Of a DNA stretch of 64,000 nt, positions 42,921-64,000 are shown one piece after another. The position numbers and the translations under genes were made by a program. The notes below the pieces were generated by a model, which saw only the letters and a list, made by a program, of their open reading frames with translations, had not been told where the DNA came from and searched no databases. Within the stretch, counting starts at the first letter, position 1, and every line of letters begins with the position of its first letter. The DNA comes from Natronococcus sp. AD-5 (GTDB taxonomy: Archaea; Halobacteriota; Halobacteria; Halobacteriales; Natrialbaceae). The stretch lies in NCBI RefSeq assembly GCF_030734285.1, contig NZ_CP132295.1, positions 248,001 to 312,000 of the forward strand. Reading direction: 5' to 3'.

Positions 42921-43877
42921 TCAAATCGAGACCGGTTCGCCGGTTTCGATCGCTTCGTTTGCGGCCAGCGTTAGCTCGAGGGTTCTCGCGGCGTCCGCGT
43001 AGTCGCTCCTGACGTGCGTTTCGTCTCGCTCGTTCACGGCGGTAACGAACGCGTCCACCTCTCGACGGAGGGCTTCCGTCGAGTCGGTCGACTCGTACTC
43101 GATAGCCTCGTCGTCCACCGTTCCGGCGAGCGTCCCGTGAGTGAAATCGAGTTCGAGGTAGAAACCGTCGCCGGCCAGCTCGAGCTTGCGACCGATCGAC
43201 GTCACGCAGTTCGTCGAGATGTGACTGACCGCGCCGTTTTCGTGTTTCATCGTGGTAGAATTGACGTCCTCGAAGTCGATCGACTCGAGGTTCACGCGCG
43301 ACCCGCCGAACGCGGCGACGCGCTCGACGTCGCCGCCGAAGTAGCGAACGAGGTCGAAGACGTGCGTCGACAGCTGTACGTTGCTCCCGCCGGACTTCGC
43401 TTTCCGTCGGCCCCACTCGCGTCCGGGAACGCCGCCCCAGTATCGTCCCTCGATGAGGCTTATCGTTCGGTCACCGATCAGTTCCTCGGCCCGGTCGACC
43501 AGACTCGAGTACCGGGACAGGTATCCGGACTGGGTGATGACGCCGTGTTCCTCGATAGCGGTCCGGATTTCCGTCGCCTTCTCGTTCGTCCGCGCGACCG
43601 GTTTCTCGACCAGCAGGTCGAGGCCCCGTTCCGCGGCACCGATCGCCTGATCGGTATGCGCGAACGAGGGGATCGCCAGAACGACGGCGTCGAGCGATTC
43701 GTTCCGATAGAGTCGGTTGTGATCAGTATACACCGCCGCCTCGCGCGGCTCCGCTGCGGCGCGAGCGGTCTCCTCGTCTAAATCGCAGATCGCGGTGACG
43801 CGAACGTCGTCGCGACGGTCGAACTGTTCGAGCAGGCGCTGGCCCATGATGCCGGCTCCGACGCAGGCGAGATCCAT
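42921..43877 (-). CDS. Gfo/Idh/MocA-family oxidoreductase
   Basis: The 318-residue protein has the N-terminal Rossmann motif DLACVGAGIMGQRLLEQF, AICDLDEETARAAAEPREAA and GLDLLVEKPVARTNEKATEI, in which EKP carries the family Lys. Next is QSGYLSRYSSLVDRAEELIG, and the C-terminal substrate domain includes SGGSNVQLSTHVFDLVRYFG with the usual His. The enzyme would oxidise or reduce a sugar or sugar acid with NAD(P). GGTGAT directly precedes the ATG, but a frame extending upstream to 44639 is only a shadow of the next gene. It is transcribed with the binding-protein genes upstream, or from its own AT-rich promoter at about 43885-43905. Confidence 0.85.
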   Translation of the reverse strand: MDLACVGAGIMGQRLLEQFDRRDDVRVTAICDLDEETARAAAEPREAAVYTDHNRLYRNESLDAVVLAIPSFAHTDQAIGAAERGLDLLVEKPVARTNEKATEIRTAIEEHGVITQSGYLSRYSSLVDRAEELIGDRTISLIEGRYWGGVPGREWGRRKAKSGGSNVQLSTHVFDLVRYFGGDVERVAAFGGSRVNLESIDFEDVNSTTMKHENGAVSHISTNCVTSIGRKLELAGDGFYLELDFTHGTLAGTVDDEAIEYESTDSTEALRREVDAFVTAVNERDETHVRSDYADAARTLELTLAANEAIETGEPVSI

Positions 43878-44008
43878 ATCACCAGTAACTCGTTCGAACA
43901 ATAATAAGCGTGCCGTCCGACGGAATCCGTCGCGTCGTCTTCCGTAGGCGGTAGCGACGGAGTACGGCGGTGATATCCGTTCGGGTACCCAGTAGAACGG
44001 ATTCGCCT

Positions 44009-45856
44009 CTACCCCGACGGAGAGACGTGACCGCGCTTCACGCCGCGGAACGCACCGCGGTACGCTTCCCAGTCCTTGGTGTCCGTGTGGAAGTCGAAGT
44101 CGCGCGTGTTGCCGAAGGTCCCCGTCTGTACCTCGACGAGATCGAGACCGGGCAGGTGGAAGTTCCAGTACCACGAGAACGTCTCGGCGATCTCCTTGTT
44201 GCGCTGTTCGTCCTCGACGGTTCGCCACTCCTGGTCGAGTTCGAAGATGTTGACCTCCTCGGTCGAACCGGAGAGATCCTCCTGTCCGACCTCGGTCGGA
44301 AGTTCGACGACGATCTCGCGACCGTTGTACGGCGACCGCGTCTCTCCCTCGTCGAGGGCCTGCTGGACGTCGATCGCATCGCCCAGTTCGTTGCTGTGGG
44401 TGTGGTTGTGCCGGAAGTAGTAGAACGGGTGTGCGGTCTGTGCACCGTGACTGCCGATGGTCATGTCGAAGTCGATGATGTCCGACGTGCGATCGTTGAA
44501 CGTCGCCGACTCGAGGGCGTTGAGGTCGATCTCGAACCCGAAGTTGATGAGTTGGTCCGAGATCGTCCGTGCGAGGTTCGTCTGGTAGTCCGGGATCACC
44601 AGTTCCAGCGAAACGGGATCGCCGTCTCCATCGATCCACTGGTCGTCCTCGCGTTCGTACCCGGCCTGTTCCATCAGCGCCGTCGCGCTCGCCTCGTCGT
44701 CTTCGACCGCGTAGTCGATGTAGTCCGCGACGTAGTCGTCGCCGAGCCAGTTCGACGTGACGTCCGACGGAAGTCCGGTCTGGGCCTCCCGCGGCGTACT
44801 CTCGTTGTTGTAGTTCGTCGAGATGTGCTCGAGGTTCAGAACGTGTGCGATCGCCCGTCGAACCTCGTACTGGCGGATGTGTTCCGATCCCGGGCCCTGC
44901 TCGTAGAACTCGAGCTTCCGCATGAACGAGTCCTCGTATACGGAAACGTCCGTCATGTGATCGGGAGCCGCCCCCTCACCGACCCACTGCTGCAGCAGGC
45001 CGAAGCCGAAGTCGACGTCGCCGCCCCGAATTCGCTGTGCGAGTGCGTCGTTCTTCGCGAGGACGAACTCGAACTCGTCGATTTCGATCTGGTCGGCGTA
45101 CGGGTGGTCCTCGAACAGTTCGAAGTAAATCCCTTCCGTATCGTAATCGACGATCTCGAACGGGCCGTTTCCGAGTCCTTCCTCCACGACCGTCGAGATG
45201 TGAAGCGGCATCTCCTCCGCCATCTTCTCCTGGATCTCCAGGCGCTCGTCGTGGTCTGCCGCGTCCTGGAGGTCCTCCGCCCACGGCTTGCACTTGTCGC
45301 GGTGGATCCGTTGCATCGCGCCGAGGTAGCCGCCCAGTTGGTACTGGAGCAACTCGGGGTTCTGCGGCTCCTTGTACACCCGGGTGAGCGTCATCTCGTC
45401 CTCGAGAACGAGATCCTCGAGGTCGCTGCCGTCCCCCTGGAAGAGACGGGCACACTCCTCGAACCAGTACTTGTCCTCGGCGGTGATCCGGTCGCCGTTC
45501 CACCAGTACCAGCCGTCGGCGAACTCGACCGTCACGGCCTGTTCGTCCGAATCGTACTCCCAGTCCTCGATCTGCTCGAGCTCGATCGATCCGTCGGCGA
45601 AAAACCGCTGAACCGGCTCGAGAATCAACCACGACTGGGACCACGGGTACCCCCCCGCCCAGTGGTTGAAGTTCATCTCGTCCGGGATCGTCGGCTGCCA
45701 CGAGGAGATCCGACTCGTCGAACTGTCGTCCGTCTCACCACCCATACAGCCAGCGAGCCCCCCCGCGACCATCGCCGAACTCGCGGCGAGCATCTGCCGC
45801 CGCGTCAGGAACGCCTCGGCAGAGTCCACGGTTCCGTATCTGTCACTGTTTGGCAT
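44009..45856 (-). CDS. ABC transporter substrate-binding lipoprotein (SBP_bac_5), paralog 1
   Basis: The 615-residue protein has a Tat signal with lipobox: TRRQMLAASSAMVAGGLAGC, so it is anchored outside the membrane. The body fits the oligopeptide/nickel-type binding-protein family: DEMNFNHWAGGYPWSQSWLI, FADGWYWWNGDRITAEDKYW and NGPFEIVDYDTEGIYFELFE, then VRRAIAHVLNLEHISTNYN. Some members of this family bind beta-linked oligosaccharides rather than peptides. It is about 70 percent similar by eye to the paralog at 45929-47770. Both lie divergent from the transporter genes. A promoter box sits 25 bp upstream, suggesting a leaderless transcript. Confidence 0.88.
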   Translation of the reverse strand: MPNSDRYGTVDSAEAFLTRRQMLAASSAMVAGGLAGCMGGETDDSSTSRISSWQPTIPDEMNFNHWAGGYPWSQSWLILEPVQRFFADGSIELEQIEDWEYDSDEQAVTVEFADGWYWWNGDRITAEDKYWFEECARLFQGDGSDLEDLVLEDEMTLTRVYKEPQNPELLQYQLGGYLGAMQRIHRDKCKPWAEDLQDAADHDERLEIQEKMAEEMPLHISTVVEEGLGNGPFEIVDYDTEGIYFELFEDHPYADQIEIDEFEFVLAKNDALAQRIRGGDVDFGFGLLQQWVGEGAAPDHMTDVSVYEDSFMRKLEFYEQGPGSEHIRQYEVRRAIAHVLNLEHISTNYNNESTPREAQTGLPSDVTSNWLGDDYVADYIDYAVEDDEASATALMEQAGYEREDDQWIDGDGDPVSLELVIPDYQTNLARTISDQLINFGFEIDLNALESATFNDRTSDIIDFDMTIGSHGAQTAHPFYYFRHNHTHSNELGDAIDVQQALDEGETRSPYNGREIVVELPTEVGQEDLSGSTEEVNIFELDQEWRTVEDEQRNKEIAETFSWYWNFHLPGLDLVEVQTGTFGNTRDFDFHTDTKDWEAYRGAFRGVKRGHVSPSG

Positions 45857-45928: not shown

Positions 45929-47770
45929 TCACTTCGGCGAGACGTGGCCGCGCTTTACGCCGCGGTACGCACCGCGGTAGCAGCTCCAGTCTTTCGTGTC
46001 CGTACGGAACTCGAAGTCTCGAGTGTTGCCGAAGGTCCCGCTCTGTACTTCGACGAGATCGATCCCGGGCAGGTGGAAGTTCCAGTACCACGAGAACGTC
46101 TCGGCGATCTCTCTGCTGCGTTCCTCGTCGGCGGTGACCCGCCACTCCTGGTCGAGTTCGAAGAGGTTGATCTCCTCGGTCGGGCCGGAGAGGTCGTCGC
46201 TCCCGACTTCCGACGGAATCTCGACGACGATCTCGCGACCGTTGTACGGCGCGCGCGTCTCCCCTTCCTCCAGCACGTCTTCGATCACGCCGGTATCGCC
46301 CATATCGAGGGAGTGAGTGTGATTGTGTCGGAAGTAGTAGAACGGGTGCGCGATCAGACCCCCGTGCTCGCCGATGGTCATGTCGAAATTGATCGTGTCT
46401 TCGGTGTTCGCTCGGTAGGTCGCCCCCTCGAGCACGTTGAAGTCGACCTCGAAGCCGAAGGTGGCGAGCTGGTCCGAGACCGTCCGTCCGATGTTGGTCT
46501 GGTGGTCGGGAACGACGATCTCGAACGACACGCGAGCGCCGTCTTCGTCGATCCACCGGTCGTCCTCGCGTTCGTACCCGGCCCCTTCCAGCAGTTCGAC
46601 CGCCACCTCCTCGTCGGTTTCGGCGGAATAGTCGATGTACTCGGCGACGTAGTCGTCGTCGAGCCAGTTCGACGTGACGTCGGCCGTGAATCCCGTCTGC
46701 GCCTCGCGGGCGGTGCTCGGCGTGCTATAGTTGTCGGAGACGTGGTGATTGTTGACCAGGTGTGCGATGGCCCGCCGGACCTCGCGGTTGCGGAGGTGCT
46801 CCGACCCTGGCCCCCGCCCGAATATCTCGATCCGGCGCATAAACGTGTCGTCGTACCTGTGGATGTCCTCTACGTGATCGGTGACCGCTTCGTCGCCGAC
46901 CCACGTCTCGAGGAGGCTGTAGCCGAAGTCGGCGTCGCCGCCCTGGAGCCGCTGTGCAACCGCGTCGTCCTGCGCGAGGATGAACTCGAGTTCGTCGACC
47001 TCGATCTCGCCGGCGTAGGGGTGGTCCTCGAACAGTTCGCAGTAGATCCCCTCCGTGTCGTAATCGACGATTTCGAACGGCCCGTTCCCGAGTCCTTCCT
47101 CCGCGACCGTCGAGATGTGCAGCGGCATCTCGTCGGCCATCCGGTCTTCGATTTCGAGGCGCTCGTCACGGTCCGCCGCGTCCTGGAGGTCTTCCGCCCA
47201 CGGCTTGAACTTGTCCCGGTGGACGCGTTGCATCTCGCCGAGATAGCCGCCGAGTTTGTACTCGACCAGTTCGGGATTCTGCGGCTCCTTGTACACCCGG
47301 GTGAGCGTCATCTCGTCCTCGAGGATGAGGTCTTCGAGGTCGCCGCCGTCACCCTGGATGAGCCGAGCGCACTCCTCGTACCAGTACTTGTCCTCGGCGG
47401 TGATCCGGTCGCCGTTCCACCAGTACCAGCCGTCGGCGAACTCGACCGTCACGGCCTGTTCGGCCGGATCGTACTCCCAGTCCTCGATCATCTGATTTTC
47501 GATGGAGCCGTCGGTGAAGAACCGCTGGACGGGCTCGAGAAGCAGCCACGTCTGTGACCACGGGTACCCCGACGCCCAGGTGTTGAAGTTCATCTCGTCG
47601 GGAATCATCGGCTGGAACGTCCCGATCGTGTTTCCGGCGTCGGTTCGCTCTCCGCCGAGACACCCCGCGAGTCCGCCGGCGACCATCGCCGAACTCGCGG
47701 CGAGCATCTGCCGCCGCGTCAGGAACTCCTCGGCCGAGTCGACACAGTGGTGCGTGTCATCATCCGGCAT
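45929..47770 (-). CDS. ABC transporter substrate-binding lipoprotein (SBP_bac_5), paralog 2
   Basis: The roughly 613-residue protein repeats the architecture of paralog 1. It has TRRQMLAASSAMVAGGLAGC at the N-terminus, DEMNFNTWASGYPWSQTWLL and FADGWYWWNGDRITAEDKYW. NGPFEIVDYDTEGIYCELFE and VRRAIAHLVNNHHVSDNYS come later. Several blocks are nearly identical to paralog 1 at the DNA level while others differ, so the two may bind related but different ligands. ATGs at 47770, 47776 and 47824 are possible. I favour 47770 because the TATA box at 47792-47800 then gives a leaderless transcript, as in paralog 1. The gene overlaps nothing and is intact. Confidence 0.87.
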   Translation of the reverse strand: MPDDDTHHCVDSAEEFLTRRQMLAASSAMVAGGLAGCLGGERTDAGNTIGTFQPMIPDEMNFNTWASGYPWSQTWLLLEPVQRFFTDGSIENQMIEDWEYDPAEQAVTVEFADGWYWWNGDRITAEDKYWYEECARLIQGDGGDLEDLILEDEMTLTRVYKEPQNPELVEYKLGGYLGEMQRVHRDKFKPWAEDLQDAADRDERLEIEDRMADEMPLHISTVAEEGLGNGPFEIVDYDTEGIYCELFEDHPYAGEIEVDELEFILAQDDAVAQRLQGGDADFGYSLLETWVGDEAVTDHVEDIHRYDDTFMRRIEIFGRGPGSEHLRNREVRRAIAHLVNNHHVSDNYSTPSTAREAQTGFTADVTSNWLDDDYVAEYIDYSAETDEEVAVELLEGAGYEREDDRWIDEDGARVSFEIVVPDHQTNIGRTVSDQLATFGFEVDFNVLEGATYRANTEDTINFDMTIGEHGGLIAHPFYYFRHNHTHSLDMGDTGVIEDVLEEGETRAPYNGREIVVEIPSEVGSDDLSGPTEEINLFELDQEWRVTADEERSREIAETFSWYWNFHLPGIDLVEVQSGTFGNTRDFEFRTDTKDWSCYRGAYRGVKRGHVSPK

Positions 47771-47791
47771 AGACATACTGCATACGTTATA

Positions 47792-47800
47792 GGTTAAATA
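47792..47800 (-). promoter_or_regulatory. TATA-like box of SBP paralog 2
   Basis: TATTTAACC on the minus strand, identical to the box before paralog 1 and 22 bp upstream of the ATG at 47770. The shared box suggests parallel expression of both binding proteins. Confidence 0.55.
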
Positions 47801-47872
47801 GTTGACTACAGACGCACTTTTCACCGGTCGGCCGATCGTTCTTCCGTTCCCCGCGGTCGAATGGGCGCCGAG

Positions 47873-48133
47873 TCAGTCTCGGCGAAGTCGCTTTAATAGC
47901 AGGTAAAACGACCCAGCCGAAACGATCGCGGAAATACCGAACACGCCGAGCATGCCCGCGATGATGCCGTCCTGGCTGGTGAGCTGGACGCCGCTCTCGA
48001 AGACGGCGGCGACGAGCAGGAGGACGACGCCGATCGCGACGATCGACAACAGAAGCGATCCCCGGAGTACCTTGAGGAGCCTGTAGAGTAGTTCTTCCGT
48101 TCGGCGTGGTTCGCTCTTCGAAGCAGTTGCCAT
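47873..48133 (-). CDS. Small two-helix membrane protein next to the transporter
   Basis: The 86-residue product has a basic start (MATASKSEPRRTEELLYR) and two membrane helices (LLLSIVAIGVVLLLVAAVF and MLGVFGISAIVSAGSFYLLL) ending KRLRRD. No family is recognised. It is transcribed divergently from the ABC ATPase gene from a shared promoter region. A second small two-helix protein (50570-50794) lies inside the transporter operon, so these may be accessory subunits. The open frame extends far upstream (to 48847) only as a shadow. The frame is intact. Confidence 0.65.
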   Translation of the reverse strand: MATASKSEPRRTEELLYRLLKVLRGSLLLSIVAIGVVLLLVAAVFESGVQLTSQDGIIAGMLGVFGISAIVSAGSFYLLLKRLRRD

Positions 48134-48331: not shown

Positions 48332-50524
48332 ATGACCCGAACTGAAACTGAACTCGATATCACACACGAAAATAGCAGCTCGCAAGACGTTATTCTCGAG
48401 GCGCGTAACGTGGACGTAACGTTTGACATGGATCGTGGCACCTCTCGCGTCCTCGACAACGTGAGTTTCGACGTCCACCGGGACGAGATGCTCGGAATCG
48501 TCGGCGAAAGTGGGAGCGGAAAGTCGATGTTCGCGTCGGCCCTGCTCAACGCCGTCGTCGACCCCGGCCGGACGTCCGGCGAGATCGTTTACCACCCTCC
48601 CGACGGAGAGCCCGTCGACGTGCTTTCGCTGAGCGAAGACCAGCTCGAGCGGTTCCGCTGGGAAGAGATCTCGATGGTGTTCCAGGGGGCGATGAGTTCG
48701 TTCAACCCGACGATGAAAATCGGGGAGCACTTCGAGGAAACGATCAGGGCCCACGGAAAAGACCTCGCGGATCGGATGGAACACGGACGCCAGCTGCTCG
48801 CGGACCTGTACCTCGATCCGGATCGGGTCCTCGATTCGTACCCCCACGAACTGTCCGGCGGGATGAAACAGCGGACGCTCATCGCGCTGAGTTTGCTCCT
48901 CGAGCCGAAGGTGCTCGTGATGGACGAGCCGACGGCGGCGCTCGACTTGCTCATGCAGCGATCGATCATGAGTCTCCTGGGAGACTTACAGGAGGAGTAC
49001 GACCTGACGATCGTCTTTATCACCCACGACCTGCCGCTCGTCGCTGGACTGGCCGATCGACTCGCCGTCATGTACGCCTTCGAGTTCGTCGAGTACGGCC
49101 CGAGCGAACAGATCATTCGGGACGCCGCACACCCTTACACGCGAGCATTGTTGAAGTCGGTGCCGAGCGTCGACGCGTCCCTGGAGGACATGCATCCGAT
49201 CGAGGGGGAAAGCCCCGATCCTGTCGAGGCCCCGAGCGGCTGTTCGTACCACCCTCGCTGTCCGCTCGCGACCGAGGAGTGCGTACAGGCGGATCCGGAG
49301 TACCACGACGTCAACGACGAACGAGGAGCCGCCTGCTTCCGCTGGGAACGGTCGAGCGACGAAATCGAGTACGCGCTCGGCGTCGATCCGGACGAGCCCG
49401 CGAAGTCGTCTTCGGTATCCGAATCCGCCGAGGAGACCGTCGTCTCGCTAGACGACGTCGACGTTCACTTCGAACAATCGGGACTCATCGACGAACTGTT
49501 CGGCAGGGAGCGCGTCGTTCGTGCGGTCAACGACGTGTCGATCGACCTCCGGGAAAACGAAGTCGTCGCACTCGTCGGCGAGTCCGGGTGCGGGAAGACG
49601 ACCCTCGGCAAGACCGCGATCGGTCTCCAGGAACCGACGGGTGGCTCCGTCGCGTACCGAGGCCAGGATATCGAAGCGGCGAAACGCGGACGCGGCGGCG
49701 CCGAATTCGAGGAGATTCGACGCGCCCTACAGATCGTCCACCAGGATCCCGGGAGTTCGCTGAACTCCTCCCGGACGGTCCGTGCGAGCCTCTCGGCGCC
49801 GCTGAAACGGTGGCGGCCGGATCTCGGCCCGAGCGACCGGGAAACGGTGATCTACAACCTGCTCGAGCGCGTCGGCATGAAGCCGCCCGAGGACTACGCG
49901 GCACGGTTCCCACACCAGCTCAGCGGCGGTGAACAACAGCGCGTCGTCCTCGTTCGCGCGCTACTGATGAGTCCCGATCTCATTCTCGCCGACGAGGCCG
50001 TCTCCGCGCTGGACGTCTCGTTGCGGGTGGAGATGATGGACCTGATGCTCGATCTGCAGGAGATGTTCGACACGTCGTACCTGTTCATCTCCCACGACTT
50101 CTCGAACGCGCGGTATCTCACCGAGAAGTCCGACGGGCGGATCGGCATCATGTATCTCGGCAACCTCGTCGAGATCGGCCCGGCACGGGAGATCATTCGC
50201 GACCCGAAACACCCCTACACCAAGGTGCTCCGGTGGGCGACGCCGCCGCTCGATCCGGACGAGGCCGAGGAGGCGAACGCCACCGATCCGCCGATTCGGG
50301 AGATCGACATCCCCGACCCGACGGACCCGCCGAGCGGCTGTCCCTTCCAGACGCGATGCCCCGACGCTCGCGAGGTGTGTACGCGGGAAGCGCCCGAACT
50401 GAACGAAACCGAGGGCGCCTCTCGCGTCGCCTGCTTCCGCGAGGACGACCGCCACGAGTACTGGGACAGCGAACCGGTCGAGGGCGAGACGGTCTCGCTC
50501 GATACGAAAAGCGAAGCCGACTGA
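48332..50524 (+). CDS. Fused double ABC ATPase of the oligopeptide type (DppD-DppF fusion)
   Basis: The 730-residue protein holds two complete ATPase domains. Domain 1 has Walker A GIVGESGSGKSMF, signature ELSGGMKQR and Walker B VLVMDEPTAALD. Domain 2 has Walker A ALVGESGCGKTTL, signature QLSGGEQQR and LILADEAVSALD. Each ends in an oligopeptide-type C-terminal domain with spaced Cys (CSYHPRCPLATEEC and CPFQTRCPDAREVC). In most bacteria these are two proteins, DppD/OppD and DppF/OppF. In domain 2 Walker B continues DEAVSALD, where DEPTSALD is usual. It powers import through the permeases encoded downstream. Confidence 0.9.
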   Translation: MTRTETELDITHENSSSQDVILEARNVDVTFDMDRGTSRVLDNVSFDVHRDEMLGIVGESGSGKSMFASALLNAVVDPGRTSGEIVYHPPDGEPVDVLSLSEDQLERFRWEEISMVFQGAMSSFNPTMKIGEHFEETIRAHGKDLADRMEHGRQLLADLYLDPDRVLDSYPHELSGGMKQRTLIALSLLLEPKVLVMDEPTAALDLLMQRSIMSLLGDLQEEYDLTIVFITHDLPLVAGLADRLAVMYAFEFVEYGPSEQIIRDAAHPYTRALLKSVPSVDASLEDMHPIEGESPDPVEAPSGCSYHPRCPLATEECVQADPEYHDVNDERGAACFRWERSSDEIEYALGVDPDEPAKSSSVSESAEETVVSLDDVDVHFEQSGLIDELFGRERVVRAVNDVSIDLRENEVVALVGESGCGKTTLGKTAIGLQEPTGGSVAYRGQDIEAAKRGRGGAEFEEIRRALQIVHQDPGSSLNSSRTVRASLSAPLKRWRPDLGPSDRETVIYNLLERVGMKPPEDYAARFPHQLSGGEQQRVVLVRALLMSPDLILADEAVSALDVSLRVEMMDLMLDLQEMFDTSYLFISHDFSNARYLTEKSDGRIGIMYLGNLVEIGPAREIIRDPKHPYTKVLRWATPPLDPDEAEEANATDPPIREIDIPDPTDPPSGCPFQTRCPDAREVCTREAPELNETEGASRVACFREDDRHEYWDSEPVEGETVSLDTKSEAD

Positions 50525-54515: not shown

Positions 54516-57500
54516 ATGACAGGCAACAGGAGGGGTGCGAATAGCGGTAGCTGGTACGACGAGAAACTGTGCGAGGTAGCCGGTCGTGTCGTCGAGAGCG
54601 ACGTCTCGCGCCGGTCCGTGCTCACGACGACGGGCGCGGGGATCCTTGGGAGTCTCGTCGCCGGGACCGCCGCGGCGGACGACGGGTCCGGGACGCGCAA
54701 CGCGAAGACGCGAACGACGATCTGGACCGAGGAGATGCGCGAGAACGCCCGCCGCAACGTCGAGCGCTTCGACTGGGCGGCCGCCGAACGCGACGCCGCC
54801 GTCGCGAGCGCCGACGAGTACCTCGAAGAGCACACGCTGGACGACCTCTGGCACATGGTCACGTCGCAGAAGATTCCCCGCGGAGGCGGCGTCGCCGGAT
54901 TCCGCGAGGATACGATGGGCGGTTACGACGACCCGGGAACGGACCGGCCGTGGAAGATGCGGACGGCGACGGAGGAGTACGTCGTGCCGACGAACGACTT
55001 CGCCGCCTACCGCGAGAGCGGCCTCGACGACCGCGGAATGTTCGATCCGGCTCTCGCGGACGACCAGTACCTCGTCAACGAGGAACACCCCGAGATGGGC
55101 GAGGGCTGGGGCGTCGACGACGGTACGGGGTGGATCGACGAAGACGGCGACATCGGCTCGCCGGGCGAGCGGATGAATTTCGTCGCCTTCTACAACCACT
55201 GGCACGTCTGGCGCCCCGGCGGGATTCTCCGGATCGTGCGGGCGCTCACCGACGCGTACCTGCTCACCGGCGCCCGGAAATGCTCCCGGGCGGGGACCGT
55301 CCTGCTCGATCGCATCGCCGACGTCTACCCGGAGATGGACGTCTCGGCGTACGTGCAACCCGACTACTGGAACAACCACGGCGGACGGCAGACGGGTCGC
55401 GTGATCGGCGGTAGCTGGGAGCCGAACCTCGTCCGTGACCTTCTCCGGGCGTACGACGCGTTCTTCCCGGGGATGGACGGCGACGACGAACTGATCGCGT
55501 TCCTCGACGCGAAGACCGAGAAATTTCCCGGCCTCGAGGAGAAAGATTCCGTCGAGAAGATCCGCGAGAACATCGAGGACAACTTCGTTCGCGAGATGCT
55601 GCCGGCGGCGAAGAACTCCGATCTGGTTCCCGGTCGCGGTCAACTCTCGACGGTGGCGATCTCCGCGCGCGTCCTGGACGAACCCGACGGCTACACGAAA
55701 GACGCCATCGAGTTCGTCTTTCAGCCGGGCGGGGAACGGTTCGTCGGCGACGTCTGGAACCGCGAACCCGAGAACTGGATCACGACCGGCGGCGACCTCC
55801 TCGTGCCGGTCGTCGACGTCTGGGACCGCGACGGCTACTCCAACGAGGCCGCGCCGCTGTACAACCGCATCGAGATGTCGTCGATTCGCCAGGTGGCGGA
55901 GGCGCTGAAGGGGTACGACGCCTTCGACGGCGCCGACCTCTACCAGCACCCGAAGTTCCGGCACGCGCTCCGACAGAACTCCCACCTGCTCCTGATCGAT
56001 CAACACACACCCGAAATCGGCGACACCCATCCGAATCAGGACGACAACTACCTCAGCCAGTCCGCCATCGAAGACGGTTACGAAGTCACGGGCGACGAGA
56101 TTTTCGCCCAGCTGTGGCACTTCGCGAACGGGTACTCGACGGCGGGAATCGACGGCGACGTCTTCGACGCCAACCCGGGAGGGATCAGCGACGAGATCGA
56201 AGCGATCGTCGACGCCGAGGGGCCGCTCGATCTCCCCAGCCAGAACTTGGCCGGCTACGGCTTCGCCGCCCTTCGCGACGGGGAGAACTACCTGGACGAA
56301 TCGTTCGGGATCACGTACGACTTCTCGAACCTGTTCGCGGACGCGTCGACGGAGGTCGACGACAGCTTCGACGAAGCCATCCAGCTCAACGCGGACGACG
56401 ACGGCGAGTGGTGGGAGTTCGAGTTCGACGTCGACGCGGCCGGCGAGTACGACCTCGAGATCGAGACGCTGTTCGTCTCGACCTACGGCACTTACGACCT
56501 GTACGTCAACGGCGAGCGGATCGACGTCGTCGACTTCTACAGCCCGACGTTCGACCGCGAGACGATCGCGTACGCGACGGAGCTGGCGGAAGGAAGCAAT
56601 ACGATCCGCTTCGAGAACGTCGGGCGGAACGAAGCGTCGGGCGGCTATCGAATGGCCGTCTACTACCTCGAGCTCTTCGACGCCGACGATCGCGAGCGCA
56701 GAGAGCGGGCGGCGGCGCTCGGCAACGCGAAACGGGCCTTCTGGCTCTACTACGGTCGTAACAGCATCAACGGCGGCGGAAGCGCTCACAACCACGGCGA
56801 TACGCTGAATCTGGGCGTCGCGGCGCACGGTCTCCAGCTCTCGCCCGACCTCGGATACCCCGAGGCGACCGGAAGCTGGCCCAAGCGACGCAACTGGACG
56901 GCGAACACGATCAGTCACAACACCGTAACGGTCGACGGGGAACGGCAGGATCCCCAGTGGGTCGGCGATCCGCGCCACTTCGAGGGAAGCGACGACCGAG
57001 TGAACCTGATCGACGTCGACGCGCGACACGCGTACGAGCAGTGTGACGAGTATCGCCGCACGACGGCGATGGTCACGGTCGACGAGGAACACTCCTACGC
57101 CGTCGACTTCTTCCGCGTCGCCGGCGGCGACGACCACCACTTTAGCTTTCACGGCGCGAAAGGCGAGGCGAGCGCCGACGGCATCGACCTCGTCCCCCAG
57201 GACGGCGGCACGTACGCCGGCGAGGACGTCCCCAAACCCGGCTACGGCGAGGATACCGAGTACAATCGGACCGTCGGCAGCGGCTTCAACTACCTCGACA
57301 ACGTCGAACGCGACGCCGACCCCGGCCGAACGGTCGCGATCGACTGGGACGTCGAGGATCACTGGAACGATCGCGACGACGACGCCGACGGCGTCCACCT
57401 TCGGCTGACCACCTTCGGCGAGTTCGACGAAGTCGCGCTCGCCGACGGCCATCCGCCCGACCTCGGCGGTAATCCCGAGTCGCTCCGATACGCGTTGTTG

Positions 57501-58220
57501 CACCGCAGCGGCGCCGACCTCGAGAGCACGTTCCTCTCGACGATCGAGCACTACGACGGCGACCGCGTCGTCGAATCGGTCGAGGAGGTCGCCGTGTCCG
57601 GCGGCGACGGTCGCGCCGTCAAAGTCGACCTCGCGACCGGGCGAACCGACTACGTCGTCTGCACTGACGGAGAAGAGAGCACAGTCACCGTCGACGGGAC
57701 GTTCGAGTTCCGCGGCTTCTTCGGCCTCTACTCGGTCGAAGACGGCGAGTCGGAGTACGCGTACGTCCACGACGGAACGTTGCTCAAGCCCGTCGACGGT
57801 CAGCCAGTGATTCAGGAATCGCAGGGATTCGTCCGCGGGTTCGTCGAGGACTTCACGCGAGGGATGCGCCTCGAGAACGAACTCGAACTCCGGGTTCCGG
57901 ACGAGCGACCGGCGCTCGAGGAACGCATCTCGGATTTCGTCTACGTCGACAACGACGCGTCCGATAGCTGGCGCGGCGACCGCTACGAGGAGCACCAGCC
58001 GATCGAAGAGCGAGACCAGCGAGGGGTGGGCAACGGTGCATACCCCGTCGAAGGCGTAACCGTCGGGGACGGAAACGAAGTGACCGTCGACGTCGGCGAG
58101 CGAACGTTCGTCCGGCAGTTCGCCGATCCGGATCGACTCGAAGAGGGCGGGTACGAGTACATCGTCGACGTCGGCGAAGACGTCAAAATCCCGCTGACTG
58201 CGGCCTGGTCGCAGACGTAG
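54516..58220 (+). CDS. Tat-exported heparinase II/III-like polysaccharide lyase, copy 1
   Basis: The roughly 1,234-residue protein has a Tat signal (SRRSVLTTTGAGILGSLVAG) and then an alpha/alpha toroid region to about 610 (NHWHVWRPGGILRIVRALTD, YSTAGIDGDVFDANPGG). A compact beta domain at about 616-720 (EWWEFEFDVDAAGEYDLEIE, YDLYVNGERIDVVDFYSP) looks like a carbohydrate-binding module. The toroid then resumes with GNAKRAFWLYYGRN and the catalytic-type HNHGDTLNLGVAAHG near 757. SHNTVTVDGERQ near 800 opens the heparinase II/III beta-sheet domain. Such enzymes cleave uronic-acid polymers by beta-elimination outside the cell. The substrate is unknown. The protein is about 75 percent identical to copy 2 by eye, with near-identical tracts. 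Confidence 0.82.
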   Translation: MTGNRRGANSGSWYDEKLCEVAGRVVESDVSRRSVLTTTGAGILGSLVAGTAAADDGSGTRNAKTRTTIWTEEMRENARRNVERFDWAAAERDAAVASADEYLEEHTLDDLWHMVTSQKIPRGGGVAGFREDTMGGYDDPGTDRPWKMRTATEEYVVPTNDFAAYRESGLDDRGMFDPALADDQYLVNEEHPEMGEGWGVDDGTGWIDEDGDIGSPGERMNFVAFYNHWHVWRPGGILRIVRALTDAYLLTGARKCSRAGTVLLDRIADVYPEMDVSAYVQPDYWNNHGGRQTGRVIGGSWEPNLVRDLLRAYDAFFPGMDGDDELIAFLDAKTEKFPGLEEKDSVEKIRENIEDNFVREMLPAAKNSDLVPGRGQLSTVAISARVLDEPDGYTKDAIEFVFQPGGERFVGDVWNREPENWITTGGDLLVPVVDVWDRDGYSNEAAPLYNRIEMSSIRQVAEALKGYDAFDGADLYQHPKFRHALRQNSHLLLIDQHTPEIGDTHPNQDDNYLSQSAIEDGYEVTGDEIFAQLWHFANGYSTAGIDGDVFDANPGGISDEIEAIVDAEGPLDLPSQNLAGYGFAALRDGENYLDESFGITYDFSNLFADASTEVDDSFDEAIQLNADDDGEWWEFEFDVDAAGEYDLEIETLFVSTYGTYDLYVNGERIDVVDFYSPTFDRETIAYATELAEGSNTIRFENVGRNEASGGYRMAVYYLELFDADDRERRERAAALGNAKRAFWLYYGRNSINGGGSAHNHGDTLNLGVAAHGLQLSPDLGYPEATGSWPKRRNWTANTISHNTVTVDGERQDPQWVGDPRHFEGSDDRVNLIDVDARHAYEQCDEYRRTTAMVTVDEEHSYAVDFFRVAGGDDHHFSFHGAKGEASADGIDLVPQDGGTYAGEDVPKPGYGEDTEYNRTVGSGFNYLDNVERDADPGRTVAIDWDVEDHWNDRDDDADGVHLRLTTFGEFDEVALADGHPPDLGGNPESLRYALLHRSGADLESTFLSTIEHYDGDRVVESVEEVAVSGGDGRAVKVDLATGRTDYVVCTDGEESTVTVDGTFEFRGFFGLYSVEDGESEYAYVHDGTLLKPVDGQPVIQESQGFVRGFVEDFTRGMRLENELELRVPDERPALEERISDFVYVDNDASDSWRGDRYEEHQPIEERDQRGVGNGAYPVEGVTVGDGNEVTVDVGERTFVRQFADPDRLEEGGYEYIVDVGEDVKIPLTAAWSQT

Positions 58221-58418
58221 TCGAAGTTCGCGGTCGTCGAACCGGTTTCGGCAGTGGAGCCAGTCCGTCCGGATCGTCGGGCCGAGAAGGAAACCGCTCG
58301 TCGACTCCAAACGCATTCTTTCGTCGTTATCTCGGAAATATCATACTGAATACATGGTTCTCTGAAATAGTGAATATGAGGAAAAGTTCTATTATCGATG
58401 AATCTCATGTGTTTGGTG
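58221..58418. promoter_or_regulatory. Spacer between the two lyase genes, with shared leader
   Basis: The spacer carries TCTATTATCGATGAATCTCA and ATGTGTTTGGTG before the ATG at 58419, matching the leader of copy 1 (TATATTATCGCCGAA, ATGTGTTAGTTG). A TTTCG rich stretch after the first gene could end its transcript. Copy 2 therefore probably has its own promoter. Confidence 0.45.
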
Positions 58419-61400
58419 ATGTCTCGCAATGAATGGAGCGGGAAGCGCAGTGACCGGTACGACGAGCAAAGTGCCGTAACCGACCGGGCGATCGATGTCG
58501 AGGTCTCGAGACGATCCCTGCTGGCGGCGACCGGCGGAGGGATCCTCGCGGGCCTCACCGCCGGGGCGGGAACGGCCTCCGCCGATTCGGACGCATTCAA
58601 CGCGAAGAGCCGTCTGACGCTCTGGACCGAGGAAATGCGCGAGAACGCCCGCCGCAACGTCGAGCGCTACGACTGGGCAGCAACCGAACGCGACAGTGCG
58701 GTCGGAAGCGCCGACGAGTACCTCGAAGAGCACACGCTGGACGACCTCTGGCACATGGTCACGTCGCAGAAGATTCCGCGCGGCGGCGGGACAACTCACT
58801 TTCGCCAATTGATGGGGTGGAGTTGGACCGGCGTCGGGATCGATCGCGCTCTCGACCGGCCGTGGAAGATGCGGACGGCGACGGAGGAGTACGTCGTGCC
58901 AACGAACGACTTCGCCGCCTACCGCGAGAGCGGCCTCGACGACCGCGGAATGTTCGATCCGGCTCTCGCGGACGACCAGTACCTCGTCAACGAGGAACAC
59001 CCCGAGATGGGCGAGGGCTGGGGCGTCGACGACGGCACGGGGTGGATCGACGAAGACGGCGATATCGGTGACGAAGGCCAGCGGATGAACTTCGCCGCGT
59101 ACTACAACCATTGGTACGTCTGGCGCCCCGGCGGAATCCTTCGGATCGTCGAGGCGCTCGCCGACGCCTACCTGCTCACCGGCGACCGGAAGTACTCCCG
59201 GGCGGGAACCGTCCTGCTCGATCGCATCGCCGACGTCTACCCGGAGATGACCATCTACGACTATCCGGATCCCGAGTACTGGAACAGCACCGGCGGACGC
59301 GGAACCGGCAAGGTGATCGGCGCGACGTGGGAGTCGAACCTGATGCGCCCGATCATCCAGGCCTACGACGCGTTCTTCCCGGGAATGGACGGCGACGACG
59401 AACTGATCGCGTTTCTCGACGCGAAGACCGACGAGTACCCCGGTCTCGAGGGAAAGGATTCCGTCGAGAAGATCCGCAAGAACATCGAGGACGGGATCCT
59501 CCGGGAGGTACTCCCGGCGGCGGAAAACTCGGACATCATCCTCGAGAGCGGCGGGTACAGCGCGCTCGCACAGTCCGCGCGCGTGCTGGACGAACCCGAC
59601 GGCTACACGCGGGAGGCGATCGAGTGGATCTTCCAGCCCGGCAAGGAGAAGTTCGTCGGCGACCAGTGGGACGAAGAGCCCGAGAACTGGATCACCACCG
59701 GCGGAAACATCCTCGCGCCGCTGGTCGACGTCGTCGACCGGGACGGCTACAACAACAGGGGCTCCCCGATGTACAACCGGATCCGGCAGACCTCGTTCCG
59801 GGAAGCCGCGGACCACCTCCAGGGGTACGACGGGTTCGACGGTGCCGACCTCTATCAGCACCCGAAGTTCCGACAGACGCTCCGACAGAACACGCACCTG
59901 CTGCTCCTCGATCGGTACGTTCCCGAGATCGGAAACGCCCATCCGAATCGGAACGCGGACTACCTCTCTACGAGCTCGATCGAGGCGGGCTATCAGGCGA
60001 CCGGACGGGATATCTTCGCGCAACTCTGGCACTTCGTAAACGGCTACTCAACGGTGGGGATCCGCGGGTCGATCTTCGACGCGGATCCCGAGGGAGTCGC
60101 CGACGAGATTCGGGCGGTGATCGACGCCGAGGGGCCGCTCGACCTGCCGAGTCAGAACCTCGCCGGCTACGGGTTCGCCGCGCTTCGCGACGGGACGAAT
60201 TACCTGAACCGATCGTTCGGAACGATCTACGACACCTCCGAGCTGTTCGCCGAGGCGTCCACCGACGTCAACGACAGCTTCGACGAAGCCATCCAGCTCC
60301 AGGCCTACGAGGAAGGCGAGTGGTGGGAGTTCGAGTTCGAGGCCGACGCGAGCGACGAGTACGACCTCGAGATCGAGACGCTGTTCGTCTCGACGTACGG
60401 GATCTACGACCTGTATATCAACGGCGAGCGGATCGACACCGTCGACTTCTACAGCCCGTCGTTCGATCGCGACACGATTACGTACACGGTGGAACTGCCG
60501 GAGGGAACCAACACGATGCGGTGGGAGAACGTCGGGAAGAACGAGGAATCGGACAACTACCTGATGGCGCTGTACTACCTCACGCTGATCGACGAGAGCG
60601 AGCGCGAGAACAGGGAGGCCGCGTCCGAACTCGGCAACGCGAAACGGGCCTTCTGGCTCTACTACGGTCGCAACGATATCACGTATCACAACCACAGCGA
60701 CACGCTGAACGTCGGCGTCGCCGCGCACGAACTCGAGCTCTCGCCCGATCTGGGATACGTCGAAGCCACCGGCGACTGGCCGAAGGGACACAACTGGACG
60801 ATGAATACGGTGAGTCACAACACCGTCGTGGTCGACGAGGAGGAACAGCACACCCAGTGGGTTTCGACTCCTCGACACTTCGACGGCGCGGACGATCGGG
60901 TCAACCTCGTCGACGTCGAAGCGCCGCACGTCTATCCGCAAGCCGACGAGTACCGGCGGACGCTCGCGACGGTCGCGGTCGACGAGGAACACTCCTACGC
61001 CGTCGACTTCTTCCGCGTCGCCGGCGGCGACGACCACCACTTCAGCTTCCACGGCGCGAAGGGAGAGGCGAGCGCCGACGGCGTCGACCTCGTCCCCCAG
61101 GACGGCGGCACGTACGCCGGCGAGGACGTCCCGAAGCCCGGCTACGGCGAAGACACGGAATACAACCGGGAGGTCGGTAACGGCTTCAACTACCTCGACA
61201 ACGTCGAACGCGACGCCGACCCCGGCCGAACGGTCGCGATCGACTGGGACGTCGAGGACCACTGGAACCGCCGCGACGACGACGCCGACGGCGTCCACGT
61301 GCGACTGACCACCTTCGGCGAGTTCGACGAGGTCGCACTCGCGGACGGACACCCGCCACAGCACAGCGGCAACCCGGAAACGTTGCGGTACGCGCTGGCC

Positions 61401-62111
61401 CACCGCAGCGGCGCCGACCTGAAGAGCACGTTCGTCTCGACGATCGAGCACTACGACGGCGACCGCGTCGTCGAATCGGTCGAGGAGGTCGACGCGATCG
61501 GCGGCGACGCCCGCGCCGTCAAGGTCGAACTCACGACCGGGCGGACCGACTACGTCGTCTGCACCTTCGGGGAGGTGAGTACGGTCACGGTCGACGAGAC
61601 GTTCTCGTTCCGCGGCTTCTTCGGCCTCTACTCGGTCGAAGACGGCGAGCCGGAGTACGCGTACGTCCACGACGGCACGCTGCTCAAACCCCTCGATCGA
61701 TCCCCCCTCGTCCGGGAATCGGCCGGCTACGTCCGGGGATTCGTCGAGGACTTCACGCGGGGGATGCGTCTCGAGAACGAACTCGAACTCCGGATTCCCG
61801 ACGATAAAGACGAGATCGATCGCAACGCCGGATTCGTCTACGTCGACAACGACGATTCCGATCCATGGCGAGGACGGCCCGACCTGCAGATCCCGGCGAT
61901 CTCGGAACCGCGCGGCCGCGGCAACGGCGCGTATCCGATCGAGAACTTCGAGGTCGGCGGCGGGAACACGGTGACCGTCGACGTCGGCGAACGGACGTTC
62001 GTCCGGCAGTTCGACGATCCCGACGAACTCGAAGACGGGGGCTACGAGTACATCATCGAACGCAACAACGATGTCAGGATCCCGCTGACCGCGACCTGGT
62101 CGCGGGAGTAG
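58419..62111 (+). CDS. Tat-exported heparinase II/III-like polysaccharide lyase, copy 2
   Basis: The roughly 1,230-residue protein repeats copy 1. It has a Tat signal (SRRSLLAATGGGILAGLTAG), toroid (NHWYVWRPGGILRIVEALAD), inserted beta domain at about 619-722 (EWWEFEFEADASDEYDLEIE), then GNAKRAFWLYYGRN and YHNHSDTLNVGVAAHELEL near 756. SHNTVVVDEEEQHTQ opens the beta-sheet domain. It differs from copy 1 mainly around residues 125-145 (RQLMGWSWTGVGIDRALDRP) and in the loop before HNH, where copy 1 has a Gly-rich insertion. Those sites may change the substrate. The upstream start at 58398 is possible, but MSRNEWSG aligns better with copy 1. Confidence 0.82.
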   Translation: MSRNEWSGKRSDRYDEQSAVTDRAIDVEVSRRSLLAATGGGILAGLTAGAGTASADSDAFNAKSRLTLWTEEMRENARRNVERYDWAATERDSAVGSADEYLEEHTLDDLWHMVTSQKIPRGGGTTHFRQLMGWSWTGVGIDRALDRPWKMRTATEEYVVPTNDFAAYRESGLDDRGMFDPALADDQYLVNEEHPEMGEGWGVDDGTGWIDEDGDIGDEGQRMNFAAYYNHWYVWRPGGILRIVEALADAYLLTGDRKYSRAGTVLLDRIADVYPEMTIYDYPDPEYWNSTGGRGTGKVIGATWESNLMRPIIQAYDAFFPGMDGDDELIAFLDAKTDEYPGLEGKDSVEKIRKNIEDGILREVLPAAENSDIILESGGYSALAQSARVLDEPDGYTREAIEWIFQPGKEKFVGDQWDEEPENWITTGGNILAPLVDVVDRDGYNNRGSPMYNRIRQTSFREAADHLQGYDGFDGADLYQHPKFRQTLRQNTHLLLLDRYVPEIGNAHPNRNADYLSTSSIEAGYQATGRDIFAQLWHFVNGYSTVGIRGSIFDADPEGVADEIRAVIDAEGPLDLPSQNLAGYGFAALRDGTNYLNRSFGTIYDTSELFAEASTDVNDSFDEAIQLQAYEEGEWWEFEFEADASDEYDLEIETLFVSTYGIYDLYINGERIDTVDFYSPSFDRDTITYTVELPEGTNTMRWENVGKNEESDNYLMALYYLTLIDESERENREAASELGNAKRAFWLYYGRNDITYHNHSDTLNVGVAAHELELSPDLGYVEATGDWPKGHNWTMNTVSHNTVVVDEEEQHTQWVSTPRHFDGADDRVNLVDVEAPHVYPQADEYRRTLATVAVDEEHSYAVDFFRVAGGDDHHFSFHGAKGEASADGVDLVPQDGGTYAGEDVPKPGYGEDTEYNREVGNGFNYLDNVERDADPGRTVAIDWDVEDHWNRRDDDADGVHVRLTTFGEFDEVALADGHPPQHSGNPETLRYALAHRSGADLKSTFVSTIEHYDGDRVVESVEEVDAIGGDARAVKVELTTGRTDYVVCTFGEVSTVTVDETFSFRGFFGLYSVEDGEPEYAYVHDGTLLKPLDRSPLVRESAGYVRGFVEDFTRGMRLENELELRIPDDKDEIDRNAGFVYVDNDDSDPWRGRPDLQIPAISEPRGRGNGAYPIENFEVGGGNTVTVDVGERTFVRQFDDPDELEDGGYEYIIERNNDVRIPLTATWSRE

Positions 62112-62190: not shown

Positions 62191-62955
62191 CTACGACGAC
62201 GCGCCTCGAAGGTACTCGAGGTCGGCCTCGATCGCCGTCCGGTACGGGCGGTCGCCGTCGACGAATTCGACGTTCACGAAGCCGGAGAAGCCGGCGTTCT
62301 TGAAGATCCCGAGCAGCCGCTCGAGGTCGAAAAACGCGGCCTCGAGCGGGCAGCGATCGCGGGAACCTCGTTCCGGAACCGCCTGTACGTGGACGTTGTT
62401 CGAGATCGGCGCGAGATCCTTCGCCTCCTCGACCAGCACGTCCGGGGCCATCGAGAACGCGGGCTGCCAGTTGAGCCGGCAGTTCTCCCGGTCGACCGCC
62501 TCGACGAGCCGTCTCGCGCCCTCGCCGTCGTTCGTGAGCGTGTTCGCGTGCTTCTCGACGGTGACGCCGAGGTCGCGATCGGCCGCATGCCGACTCGCCC
62601 TCGAGAGGTCCTCCACCGCCCGGTCCCAGTGCTCGTCGTCGTGATCGCCGTACTCCTGGCTGCCGGCCCAGACGCGGATCAGGTCCGCCTCTAACCGCCG
62701 TGCGATCTCGAATTCCCGCTCGAGCAGGTCATCGAAGTCCGGCGCACCGACGCGCAGGTACGAGCCGTAGACGGGGATCTCGACCGACGCCGCTCGAGCG
62801 GCGTCTCGGATCGACCGACACGTCTCCGGGTTGCCGTCCCCGACGTGGTCTTTCCCCCACACTTCGACGCCGTCGTAGCCCGCGTCGCCGGCGTCGCGGA
62901 TCACGGATTCGACGCTCGCCGCCCGATTCGAAATCGTACAGAGTCCGATCTGCAT
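62191..62955 (-). CDS. Sugar phosphate isomerase/epimerase-like TIM barrel
   Basis: The 254-residue protein belongs to the AP-endonuclease-2-like TIM barrels. MQIGLCTISNRAASVESVIR and GYDGVEVWGKDHVGD are followed by ADLIRVWAGSQEYGDHDDEH and GVTVEKHANTLTNDGEGARR (Glu metal ligand). NCRLNWQPAFSMAPDVLVEE and SGFVNVEFVDGDRPY (Glu) close the barrel. Family members act on keto sugars, inosose or hydroxypyruvate with a divalent metal. In this locus it would isomerise an imported or freed sugar. It is convergent with lyase copy 2 and lies downstream of the esterase on the same strand, 48 bp away, so those two form an operon. Confidence 0.82.
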   Translation of the reverse strand: MQIGLCTISNRAASVESVIRDAGDAGYDGVEVWGKDHVGDGNPETCRSIRDAARAASVEIPVYGSYLRVGAPDFDDLLEREFEIARRLEADLIRVWAGSQEYGDHDDEHWDRAVEDLSRASRHAADRDLGVTVEKHANTLTNDGEGARRLVEAVDRENCRLNWQPAFSMAPDVLVEEAKDLAPISNNVHVQAVPERGSRDRCPLEAAFFDLERLLGIFKNAGFSGFVNVEFVDGDRPYRTAIEADLEYLRGASS

Positions 62956-63003
62956 GAACGAGGCGTGAGAGCGAGCGGGCTAAACTGTTTCGACGGGTGA
63001 CGG

Positions 63004-64000
63004 TTACTGATACCGCGAGAGGTCACCGTCCCAGTCGATTTCGCGGTCGCCGAGCGCCGCAAGGAGCTGCGGGACGTCGAACTCGCCGACGATTCCGTGA
63101 ACGTTCAGCCGGTGGTCGACCGGGATCTCCTCGGTCGTGGCCTGCTCGTAGAACGAGGGGAACGGCTCGACGGCCGAGACCGTCCGAATCGACGGCTCGA
63201 CGACCGCGGCGAGCAGCGCGTGGATTCCCCACGGTCCGTGCCCTTCGATCGCGATTTCCTCCTCGTCGAGTCGGGATCGAAGGTACTCGACGGCGCGGAG
63301 GACGTCGAACGTCTGCAGCGCGAGCAGCGACGTGCCTAGCATCAGCGCGTCCGAAGCGAGCTTGTTTACCGTTCCGTGGTAATCGTCGTACCCGCCGCCG
63401 TTTTGCTGTCGCGTGTTCACGGTTCGCGAGCGAACGCCGCCGACGCCGCGGGGATCGGCGACGACGACGGTCCCGTGGTCTCGAGCGAGCGACGCGACGA
63501 CGTCGCGTCGCTCCTCGATCTCGTCGGTGCCCTCCTCGAGCAACAGGACGAGCGGCTCTTCGGTGTCCTCCTCGTCCGCGGTCACGACGATAGCCGTGAC
63601 GACGACCTCCCGTTCGCTCAGGAAGAACACCTTCTCCCACGTCACGTCCCCTTCGCTCCCGGTCTGGATCGTCCGCGGGTGGAGTTCGGGCCGGTCGCGC
63701 TCGAGGTCGAACCGGTCGACGAGCCGCGACCGAAGCCGGCGGGCGTACGCCGCCTCGTTATCGACTGCCGGAGCCGTCGCTGCCCCCGGCGCGGTCGCGT
63801 TCGCGTACTCGCGGTTCAGGTCGACGACGGTTCTCTCGTCGGGGAACGCGTCTTTGACCTCGCCGGCGTCGGTACACTCGAGCCGTTCCTGGTCCTCGGT
63901 CGCCGGATCGGCCGTCTCGAACGTCGGCGGCTCGTCCAGCAGGTGGCGTCTGAACCAGTTGACCGTCGCCTCGCGGAGCTCCGGGCCGAAGCCGTGGGTC
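63004..64000 (-). CDS. Two-domain alpha/beta hydrolase, possible carbohydrate esterase (5' end outside window)
   Basis: The frame is open from the window edge to a stop at 63004, at least 331 codons. The visible part starts with the end of one hydrolase domain (THGFGPELREATVNWFRRHL, LDEPPTFETAD). A second domain follows: VTWEKVFFLSEREVVV-like strands, EEPLVLLLEEGTDEIEERRD, GTVVVADPRGVGGVRSRTVN and LRSRLDEEEIAIEGHGPWGI, then HALLAAVVEPSIRTVSAVEP. GHGPWG stands where the nucleophile elbow GxSxG is usual, so the second domain may be inactive. Similar two-domain proteins sit in polysaccharide loci and are annotated as acetylxylan esterase-like. It precedes the TIM-barrel gene and is co-directional with it. 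Confidence 0.7.
   Translation of the reverse strand, partial: THGFGPELREATVNWFRRHLLDEPPTFETADPATEDQERLECTDAGEVKDAFPDERTVVDLNREYANATAPGAATAPAVDNEAAYARRLRSRLVDRFDLERDRPELHPRTIQTGSEGDVTWEKVFFLSEREVVVTAIVVTADEEDTEEPLVLLLEEGTDEIEERRDVVASLARDHGTVVVADPRGVGGVRSRTVNTRQQNGGGYDDYHGTVNKLASDALMLGTSLLALQTFDVLRAVEYLRSRLDEEEIAIEGHGPWGIHALLAAVVEPSIRTVSAVEPFPSFYEQATTEEIPVDHRLNVHGIVGEFDVPQLLAALGDREIDWDGDLSRYQ

Follow-up and report, generated by a model that had tools for sequence, protein, structure and literature searches.

What does a haloarchaeon do with two exported heparinase II/III-like proteins encoded next to an importer of the oligopeptide type? We asked this of Natronococcus sp. AD-5 (genome of 5.17 Mb), in a window of 64,000 nucleotides covering bases 248001-312000 of its 1.02-Mb second contig. 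The left half of a replicon-borne polysaccharide-utilization locus (PUL) probably lies in the window; its polymer is most likely sulfated, with hexosamine and uronic acid. This class of substrate is moderately supported, the polymer being possibly glycosaminoglycan-like or a haloarchaeal exopolysaccharide. Until 2026, haloarchaea were reportedly not known to use acidic polysaccharides, and the loci described so far are all PL8-based (PMC13260240). We found no description of the present locus type in the open-access literature. It would be a second, independent solution for acidic polysaccharides in several haloarchaeal genera, offering a lyase pair with an altered active site, an apparently GH88-free product route and a puzzle of sulfatase maturation. 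A further possibility is that, in brines, these archaea recycle the sulfated exopolysaccharides that they make themselves.

That these genes act jointly is best supported by their shared content, which is kept under reordering in other genomes. On the plasmid of Natronococcus sp. CG52, all 27 genes of the conserved set stand in the same order. Synteny with this plasmid delimits the set to about 40 kb, from window coordinate 42921 to about 82743 (coordinates above 64000 keep the window scale, read onward into the contig beyond its end). The first-pass annotation had thus rightly expected a continuation to the right. It had also proposed to look for the same gene set in other haloarchaea: Hep homologs, full-length or long, occur in 17 of the 392 genomes of the order, two further matches that cover the signal region only being left out. 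We read neighbourhoods of 40-80 kb around them, with counts that score both lyase queries even if one gene answers both. Natrialba aegyptia and N. taiwanensis have 22 of the locus genes each. A further Natrialbaceae genus contributes three genomes (G237, G297, G321) with 18-20 in rearranged order; Natrononativus (G106) has 17, also rearranged, with the importer some 10 kb further along. Smaller sets occur in Haladaptatus sp. QDMS2 (G116; 15 genes), G186 (13), G381 (12), Haladaptatus litoreus (11) and G156 (10). Since 10-22 families recur around the lyases of other Natrialbaceae and Haladaptatus-type genomes, often reordered, we take the cluster for a unit under selection; the clustering goes far beyond chance. 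The hydrolase AXE2 is found at full length in 13 of the 17 Hep genomes and in 16 of the 375 others (Fisher test, uncorrected for kinship). TrxB and an M14 peptidase, left of 42921, are retained in no relative's locus, which makes this position a fair left edge. In G227, G283, G379, G390 and, for its first copy, G381, the Heps are divergent and have no other locus gene within the 40 kb read around them.

Every gene named in the first-pass annotation is present at its place, backed by open reading frames, a haloarchaeal codon signature (high GC at third codon positions, acidic proteins) and family matches. The window part of the locus reads as follows.

42921..43895, minus strand: Gfo1, Gfo/Idh/MocA dehydrogenase, left edge of the conserved locus (PF01408, E 6e-22)
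44009..45856, minus strand: SBP_b, Tat-lipoprotein solute-binding protein, SBP_bac_5 (PF00496, E 7e-24; RR and AGC lipobox)
45929..47824, minus strand: SBP_a, Tat-lipoprotein solute-binding protein, SBP_bac_5 (PF00496, E 7.5e-23; RR and AGC lipobox)
47873..48133, minus strand: sm1, 86-residue membrane protein (two hydrophobic segments; orthologs beside Dpp genes)
48332..50524, plus strand: fused DppD-DppF ATPase (two ABC_tran and two oligo_HPY domains; NCBIfam PRK11308, 529 bits)
50570..50794, plus strand: sm2, 74-residue membrane protein (two predicted membrane helices; homologs beside Dpp-type importers)
50865..51887, plus strand: DppB-type permease (PF00528 and PF19300)
51865..52989, plus strand: DppC-type permease (PF00528)
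53071..54282, minus strand: DgaE/SelA-like pyridoxal phosphate (PLP) enzyme, proposed hexosaminate ammonia-lyase (NCBIfam DgaE families; PDB 7lc0)
54513..58220, plus strand: Hep1, Tat-exported lyase-fold protein with an RGQ-type active site (PF07940, E 3e-10; alignments, motif, trees)
58398..62111, plus strand: Hep2, Tat-exported lyase-fold protein with an SGG-type active site (PF07940, E 1.5e-7; AlphaFold model)
62191..62955, minus strand: TIM1, AP_endonuc_2 xylose-isomerase-like TIM barrel (PF01261, E 1.7e-24)
63004..64000, minus strand: AXE2, two-domain hydrolase cut by the window end, whole gene 63004-65022 (AXE1, E 3e-9; Peptidase_S9)

Inspection of the N-termini shows twin-arginine (Tat) signals in Hep1, Hep2 and the two binding proteins. 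We modelled mature Hep2 with AlphaFold from 42 sequences (mean predicted confidence, pLDDT, 88.7). Its best solved fold is the PL40 ulvan lyase (Z 37.6 over 713 residues, root-mean-square deviation 3.4), next to the PL17 alginate lyases (Z 34.7 over 634 residues, deviation 4.1). PL39 (Z 30), PL12 heparinase III (28), then PL15 and PL21 match more weakly. The structural alignment to PL40 and PL17 has less than 20% identity. An internal domain at about residues 607-733 matches the xanthan-binding module MiXBM (7ehg), with Z 17.7 over 124 residues. Profile searches of the PDB return the PL17 enzyme AlgL17 (E 3e-14) and the PL40 enzyme Uly1040 (E 2e-12); outside the insert resembling a carbohydrate-binding module, the matches fall mainly in the C-terminal domain. 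The Hep proteins are thus predicted by the model to have the fold of an (α/α)n toroid followed by an antiparallel β-sheet. The PL40 and PL17 matches are evidence of fold only, not of substrate.

The catalytic residues of this fold are largely in place. A profile alignment (hhalign) of the full Hep family with three PL17 proteins, at probability 99 and E 3.7e-18, puts Tyr459 on the tyrosine of the PL17 motif PYYQ, the catalytic acid. The motif HNHSD falls on GHGHFD, with His764 at the position of the base; the histidine of SHNT falls on that of AHNT, and the metal-site residues fall on those of PL17. The roles of Tyr and His in PL17 are published (PMC12088678). Tyr459, His764 and the metal-site residues are kept in nearly all of the 42 homologs. 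The same alignment locates the carboxylate neutraliser: the Asn of the bacterial motif GNxGxHQ aligns with the Asn of HNHG in PL17, where the spacing of 57 residues between Asn and Tyr fits the published pair Asn201/Tyr258 (PMC12088678). A YYNHW motif, which we had considered as the catalytic Asn-His, was rejected on this ground.

Uptake would be served by a complete Dpp/Opp-type ABC importer, with SBP_bac_5 proteins, DppB, DppC and DppD/F ATPases. SBP_a and SBP_b are 73% identical, and SBP_b is kept in 13 other loci. Neither sm1 nor sm2 has a Pfam family over the cut-off. Both are predicted to span the membrane with two helices; in sm2, a Cys close to either terminus is mostly conserved. Homologs of sm2 occur in 77 of the 392 genomes; each of the 16 loci inspected outside the main contexts has SBP5 and/or Dpp genes no more than about 4 kb away, often together with sm1 or HEAT-protein homologs. 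Rather than serving one particular substrate, the two small proteins seem to be accessory parts that haloarchaeal Dpp-type importers have in general. The HEAT-repeat protein of the locus (68761-69963) likewise accompanies importer genes in most loci, and turns up in six of those 16 additional ones.

Beyond the window, the conserved set continues with the following genes, all assigned by Pfam.

65069-66778, minus strand: GH20 hexosaminidase (PF00728, E 4e-62)
66878-68740, minus strand: BNR_4 protein
68761-69963, minus strand: HEAT-repeat protein
70057-71148, plus strand: Gfo2, Gfo/Idh/MocA dehydrogenase
71208-72122, minus strand: Gfo3, Gfo/Idh/MocA dehydrogenase
72255-73433, minus strand: GNAT protein
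73559-75037, plus strand: sulfatase with an SGSH_C end
75047-75910, minus strand: TIM2, second TIM barrel
75965-77308, minus strand: Ceramidase_alk-like protein (weak match)
77274-78500, minus strand: DegT aminotransferase
78568-79608, minus strand: ADH
79724-80098, plus strand: RidA
80184-81461, minus strand: Nramp
81763-82743, plus strand: LLM, luciferase-like monooxygenase

These genes change the likely substrate. A uronic-acid polymer had been proposed from the window; the GH20, the sulfatase and the amino-sugar module, part of them outside the window, shift the expectation from alginate, pectin or ulvan to a sulfated polymer that contains hexosamine. Plain use of alginate, ulvan or pectin is not favoured, given the GH20, the sulfatase and the DgaE-like enzyme, together with the missing GH88/GH105. 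The GH20 keeps the HxGGDE motif and, judged from it, is predicted to release N-acetylhexosamine. The DgaE-like enzyme matches two NCBIfam DgaE families (E 1e-57 and 1e-56, both below the curated cut-offs) and PDB 7lc0, a D-glucosaminate-6-phosphate ammonia-lyase (E 5e-40); its PLP-lysine motif SGGK is invariant in 13 proteins. All close orthologs of the sulfatase contain the motif CLPSR, of the form C/S-x-P-x-R. GH20, the sulfatase, AXE2 and the BNR_4 protein have no signal peptide, by eye.

From these families and two published pathways (discussed below), together with the fold and residues of the Hep pair, we propose the following route. Hep1 and Hep2 would cut an acidic, uronate-containing polymer outside the cell by β-elimination. 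The two lipoproteins and DppB/DppC/DppDF, with sm1 and sm2, would import the oligosaccharides. In the cytoplasm, the sulfatase would strip sulfate, the GH20 would free N-acetylhexosamine and the esterase-like AXE2 would take off acyl groups. The Gfo dehydrogenases and TIM barrels would oxidise and rearrange sugars, and the DgaE-like enzyme would turn hexosaminate, by deamination, into a 2-keto-3-deoxy acid that feeds central metabolism. An oxidative amino-sugar pathway is thus inferred by analogy. In four relatives (G106, G237, G297, G321), an Amidohydro_3 protein (D-aminoacylase) and an FAA hydrolase adjoin DgaE. The AD-5 locus has no Amidohydro_3; a PIG-L deacetylase is encoded at 92994-93719, and the nearest AD-5 gene resembling the deacetylase OngB, with 39% identity, is found at a distance of well over 100 kb.

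Several results weigh against this reading. The neutraliser Asn is missing in 27 of 27 haloarchaeal proteins of the locus clade, both Hep1 and Hep2 included. The expected GH88/GH105 enzyme (PF07470) did not turn up beyond the window: it is over the cut-off in only three of the 13 carriers, and AD-5 is not among them. The same is true of GH154 (PF10022), found in one of the 13. The cell must therefore deal with the products in another way: exolytic cleavage down to monosaccharides, GH20 action or oxidation. The nearest solved relatives of Gfo2 are DgpA (E 3e-13), which we take to be a glycoside 3-oxidising enzyme, and TIM2 resembles sugar epimerases; an oxidative route for unsaturated uronates through Gfo2 and TIM2 is only an idea. 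The sulfatase has no known maturase: FGE (PF03781) is absent from the AD-5 genome and from all Natrialbaceae carriers, and no anSME-family match (TIGR03942) is over the cut-off. The binding-protein model (pLDDT 52.8) is too poor for a fold search or a ligand class. Finally, the Natrialba carriers are without BNR_4, DegT and RidA, and Haladaptatus-type loci are without GH20 and DgaE within the stretch read; the amino-sugar part may therefore not be essential.

The Hep pair is thus no ordinary lyase pair, as had been assumed from the window, and its members also differ from each other at the neutraliser. This residue is Asn in most lyase families, Arg in a PL15 enzyme and Glu in PL21. Uly1040 loses its activity when alanine replaces either the neutralising Asn or the Trp (PMC12915356). 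The 27 locus-type proteins form a single clade (support 99 in a quick tree), in which three loop types replace the motif: RGQ, the type of Hep1, with an invariant Arg; SGG, the type of Hep2; and GSGAR in one divergent copy of Natrinema zhouii. The Asn persists in ten haloarchaeal homologs of the adjoining clade and in almost all homologs from bacteria. An RGQ protein is present in the carriers of clade members, with SGG proteins in addition in Natronococcus, Natrononativus, Halovivax, Saliphagus and the G237 group. The Arg of RGQ may replace Asn in Hep1, as in a PL15 alginate lyase. Hep2, with no evident substitute, could be specialised for a masked carboxylate, or could be a binding protein. 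A single origin of the SGG type was not borne out: the trees need about three changes. Near their 3' ends, the tandem lyase genes (54513-62111) share a 1.1-kb stretch of 83% DNA identity, which suggests gene conversion or recent duplication; gene conversion between tandem copies could possibly bear on the distribution of SGG.

How does the locus compare with known systems? The hyaluronan/chondroitin PULs of Natronoarchaeum and Haloarcula (PMC13260240) are also replicon-borne, with an exported lyase, a sulfatase and an ABC importer, for polymers of uronate and hexosamine. They use a PL8 lyase, GH88 and GH154, whereas the AD-5 locus has a PL40/PL17-like pair without the neutraliser Asn, a GH20, a Dpp importer and a DgaE-like enzyme; no PL8 family is among the Pfam matches of its genes. 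The chitin clusters of Natrarchaeobius (PMC12343721) carry a DgaE-like enzyme, RutC/RidA, an IclR regulator, a CE14 (PIG-L) deacetylase and a GH20, as found here. They are built around GH18 chitinases and an importer of the chitobiose type; the AD-5 locus has lyases, a sulfatase and a Dpp importer instead, and no GH18 match among its genes. The Pseudoalteromonas ong pathway of oxidative catabolism of 2-(acetylamino)-2-deoxy-D-gluconic acid (GlcNAc1A) shares GH20 (OngA), RidA (OngD) and, as proposed for AD-5, PLP-dependent deamination to a 2-keto-3-deoxy acid; the D-aminoacylase-type protein of the four relatives above would correspond to its deacetylase OngB (PMC9537276). In contrast, the putative deaminating enzyme of AD-5 is of DgaE/SelA type, and the lytic polysaccharide monooxygenase, SSS transporter and TonB receptors of that system have no counterpart. 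With PL40 Uly1040 and the PL17 oligoalginate lyases, the Heps share the (α/α) toroid and β-sheet, the catalytic Tyr/His and the metal-site residues; they differ by the RGQ or SGG loops and by the internal carbohydrate-binding insert.

Other readings of the same genes name a particular polymer. The substrate could be a haloarchaeal exopolysaccharide or envelope polymer of 2-acetamido-2-deoxyglucuronic acid (GlcNAcA): one residue type would then explain the lyase, the GH20, the sulfatase and the amino-acid-type PLP lyase together. Such a polymer exists, the published exopolysaccharide repeat of Haloferax mediterranei having 4-linked β-GlcNAcA with 3-O-sulfate (PMC3191746). The co-occurrence of GH20, sulfatase, DgaE and lyase, the absence of GH88 and a lyase site unlike that of ordinary uronate lyases are consistent with it. 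Nonetheless, no direct link joins the locus to this polymer, a GH20 may not accept a C6 carboxylate, and no mannose-specific gene was recognised; we consider this reading rather unlikely. A bolder version, which we think quite unlikely, makes the Hep pair a new lyase branch. It would perform β-elimination without an Asn neutraliser, on a masked (ester or amide) or 2-amino-uronic carboxylate of an archaeal exopolysaccharide or envelope glycan; oxidation by Gfo and TIM-barrel enzymes would replace GH88, and the sulfatase would be matured by a novel route.

A glycosaminoglycan of animal type, such as one from brine shrimp, would make the locus similar to the published ones but with different enzymes. 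Heparinase, PL33 and PL35 folds among the structure matches argue for it, as do the GH20 and the SGSH_C-type sulfatase, and growth of haloarchaea on glycosaminoglycans is published (PMC13260240). This origin is nevertheless unlikely: the published haloarchaeal loci depend on PL8 and GH88, with GH154, and neither a PL8 match among the locus genes nor GH88 or GH154 in AD-5 was found. It is more improbable still that the locus imports peptides or glycopeptides, with the heparinase-like proteins as cell-surface binding pseudo-enzymes only. The Dpp/Opp-type importer, the lost neutraliser, the SGG loop of Hep2 with no charged residue and the M14 peptidase just outside the locus would suit such a role, yet the catalytic Tyr and His and the metal-site residues are retained, GH20, sulfatase and sugar enzymes are present with no clear peptidase, and the M14 peptidase is not conserved with the locus. 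The polysaccharide-use locus already proposed from the window, with its exported lyase-fold proteins, oligopeptide-type importer and intracellular sugar enzymes, remains the supported reading, now extended to a probably sulfated polymer with hexosamine.

A sugar regulator had also been expected beyond the window, and an IclR-type regulator indeed lies to the right at 92223-92984; in Natronococcus sp. CG52, it stands to the left of the locus. An FAA hydrolase (83975-84709), another Gfo, a PALP enzyme and an MR_MLE-like protein are found farther right. It is uncertain whether these genes, the IclR regulator and the PIG-L deacetylase belong to the locus. At the left edge of the locus, Gfo1 has orthologs of 80-83% in the corresponding position of Natronococcus and Natrialba genomes, and one of 56% in Haladaptatus litoreus. 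For the BNR_4 protein, the sequence search returned no solved relative. The GC content is 0.48 at window positions 1-4000 and 0.6-0.67 in the locus.

Outside haloarchaea, the Hep family occurs mostly in Paenibacillus and Clostridia, with some members in Thermoactinomycetaceae, Actinopolymorpha and a metagenome-assembled genome of Opitutia. A phage origin was rejected, as no phage record holds a Hep relative. The Opitutia genome, CSSed10, has Hep relatives (L153, L155) on a branch adjoining the haloarchaeal proteins, in which the motif is also not intact (GDYGN); it is a possible exchange partner for the haloarchaeal Heps. In two Melghirimyces species (L092, L105), a Hep homolog lies near a GH20C-type gene, two DegT genes, a Gfo gene and one of the enolase superfamily: possibly, a bacterial counterpart of the locus.

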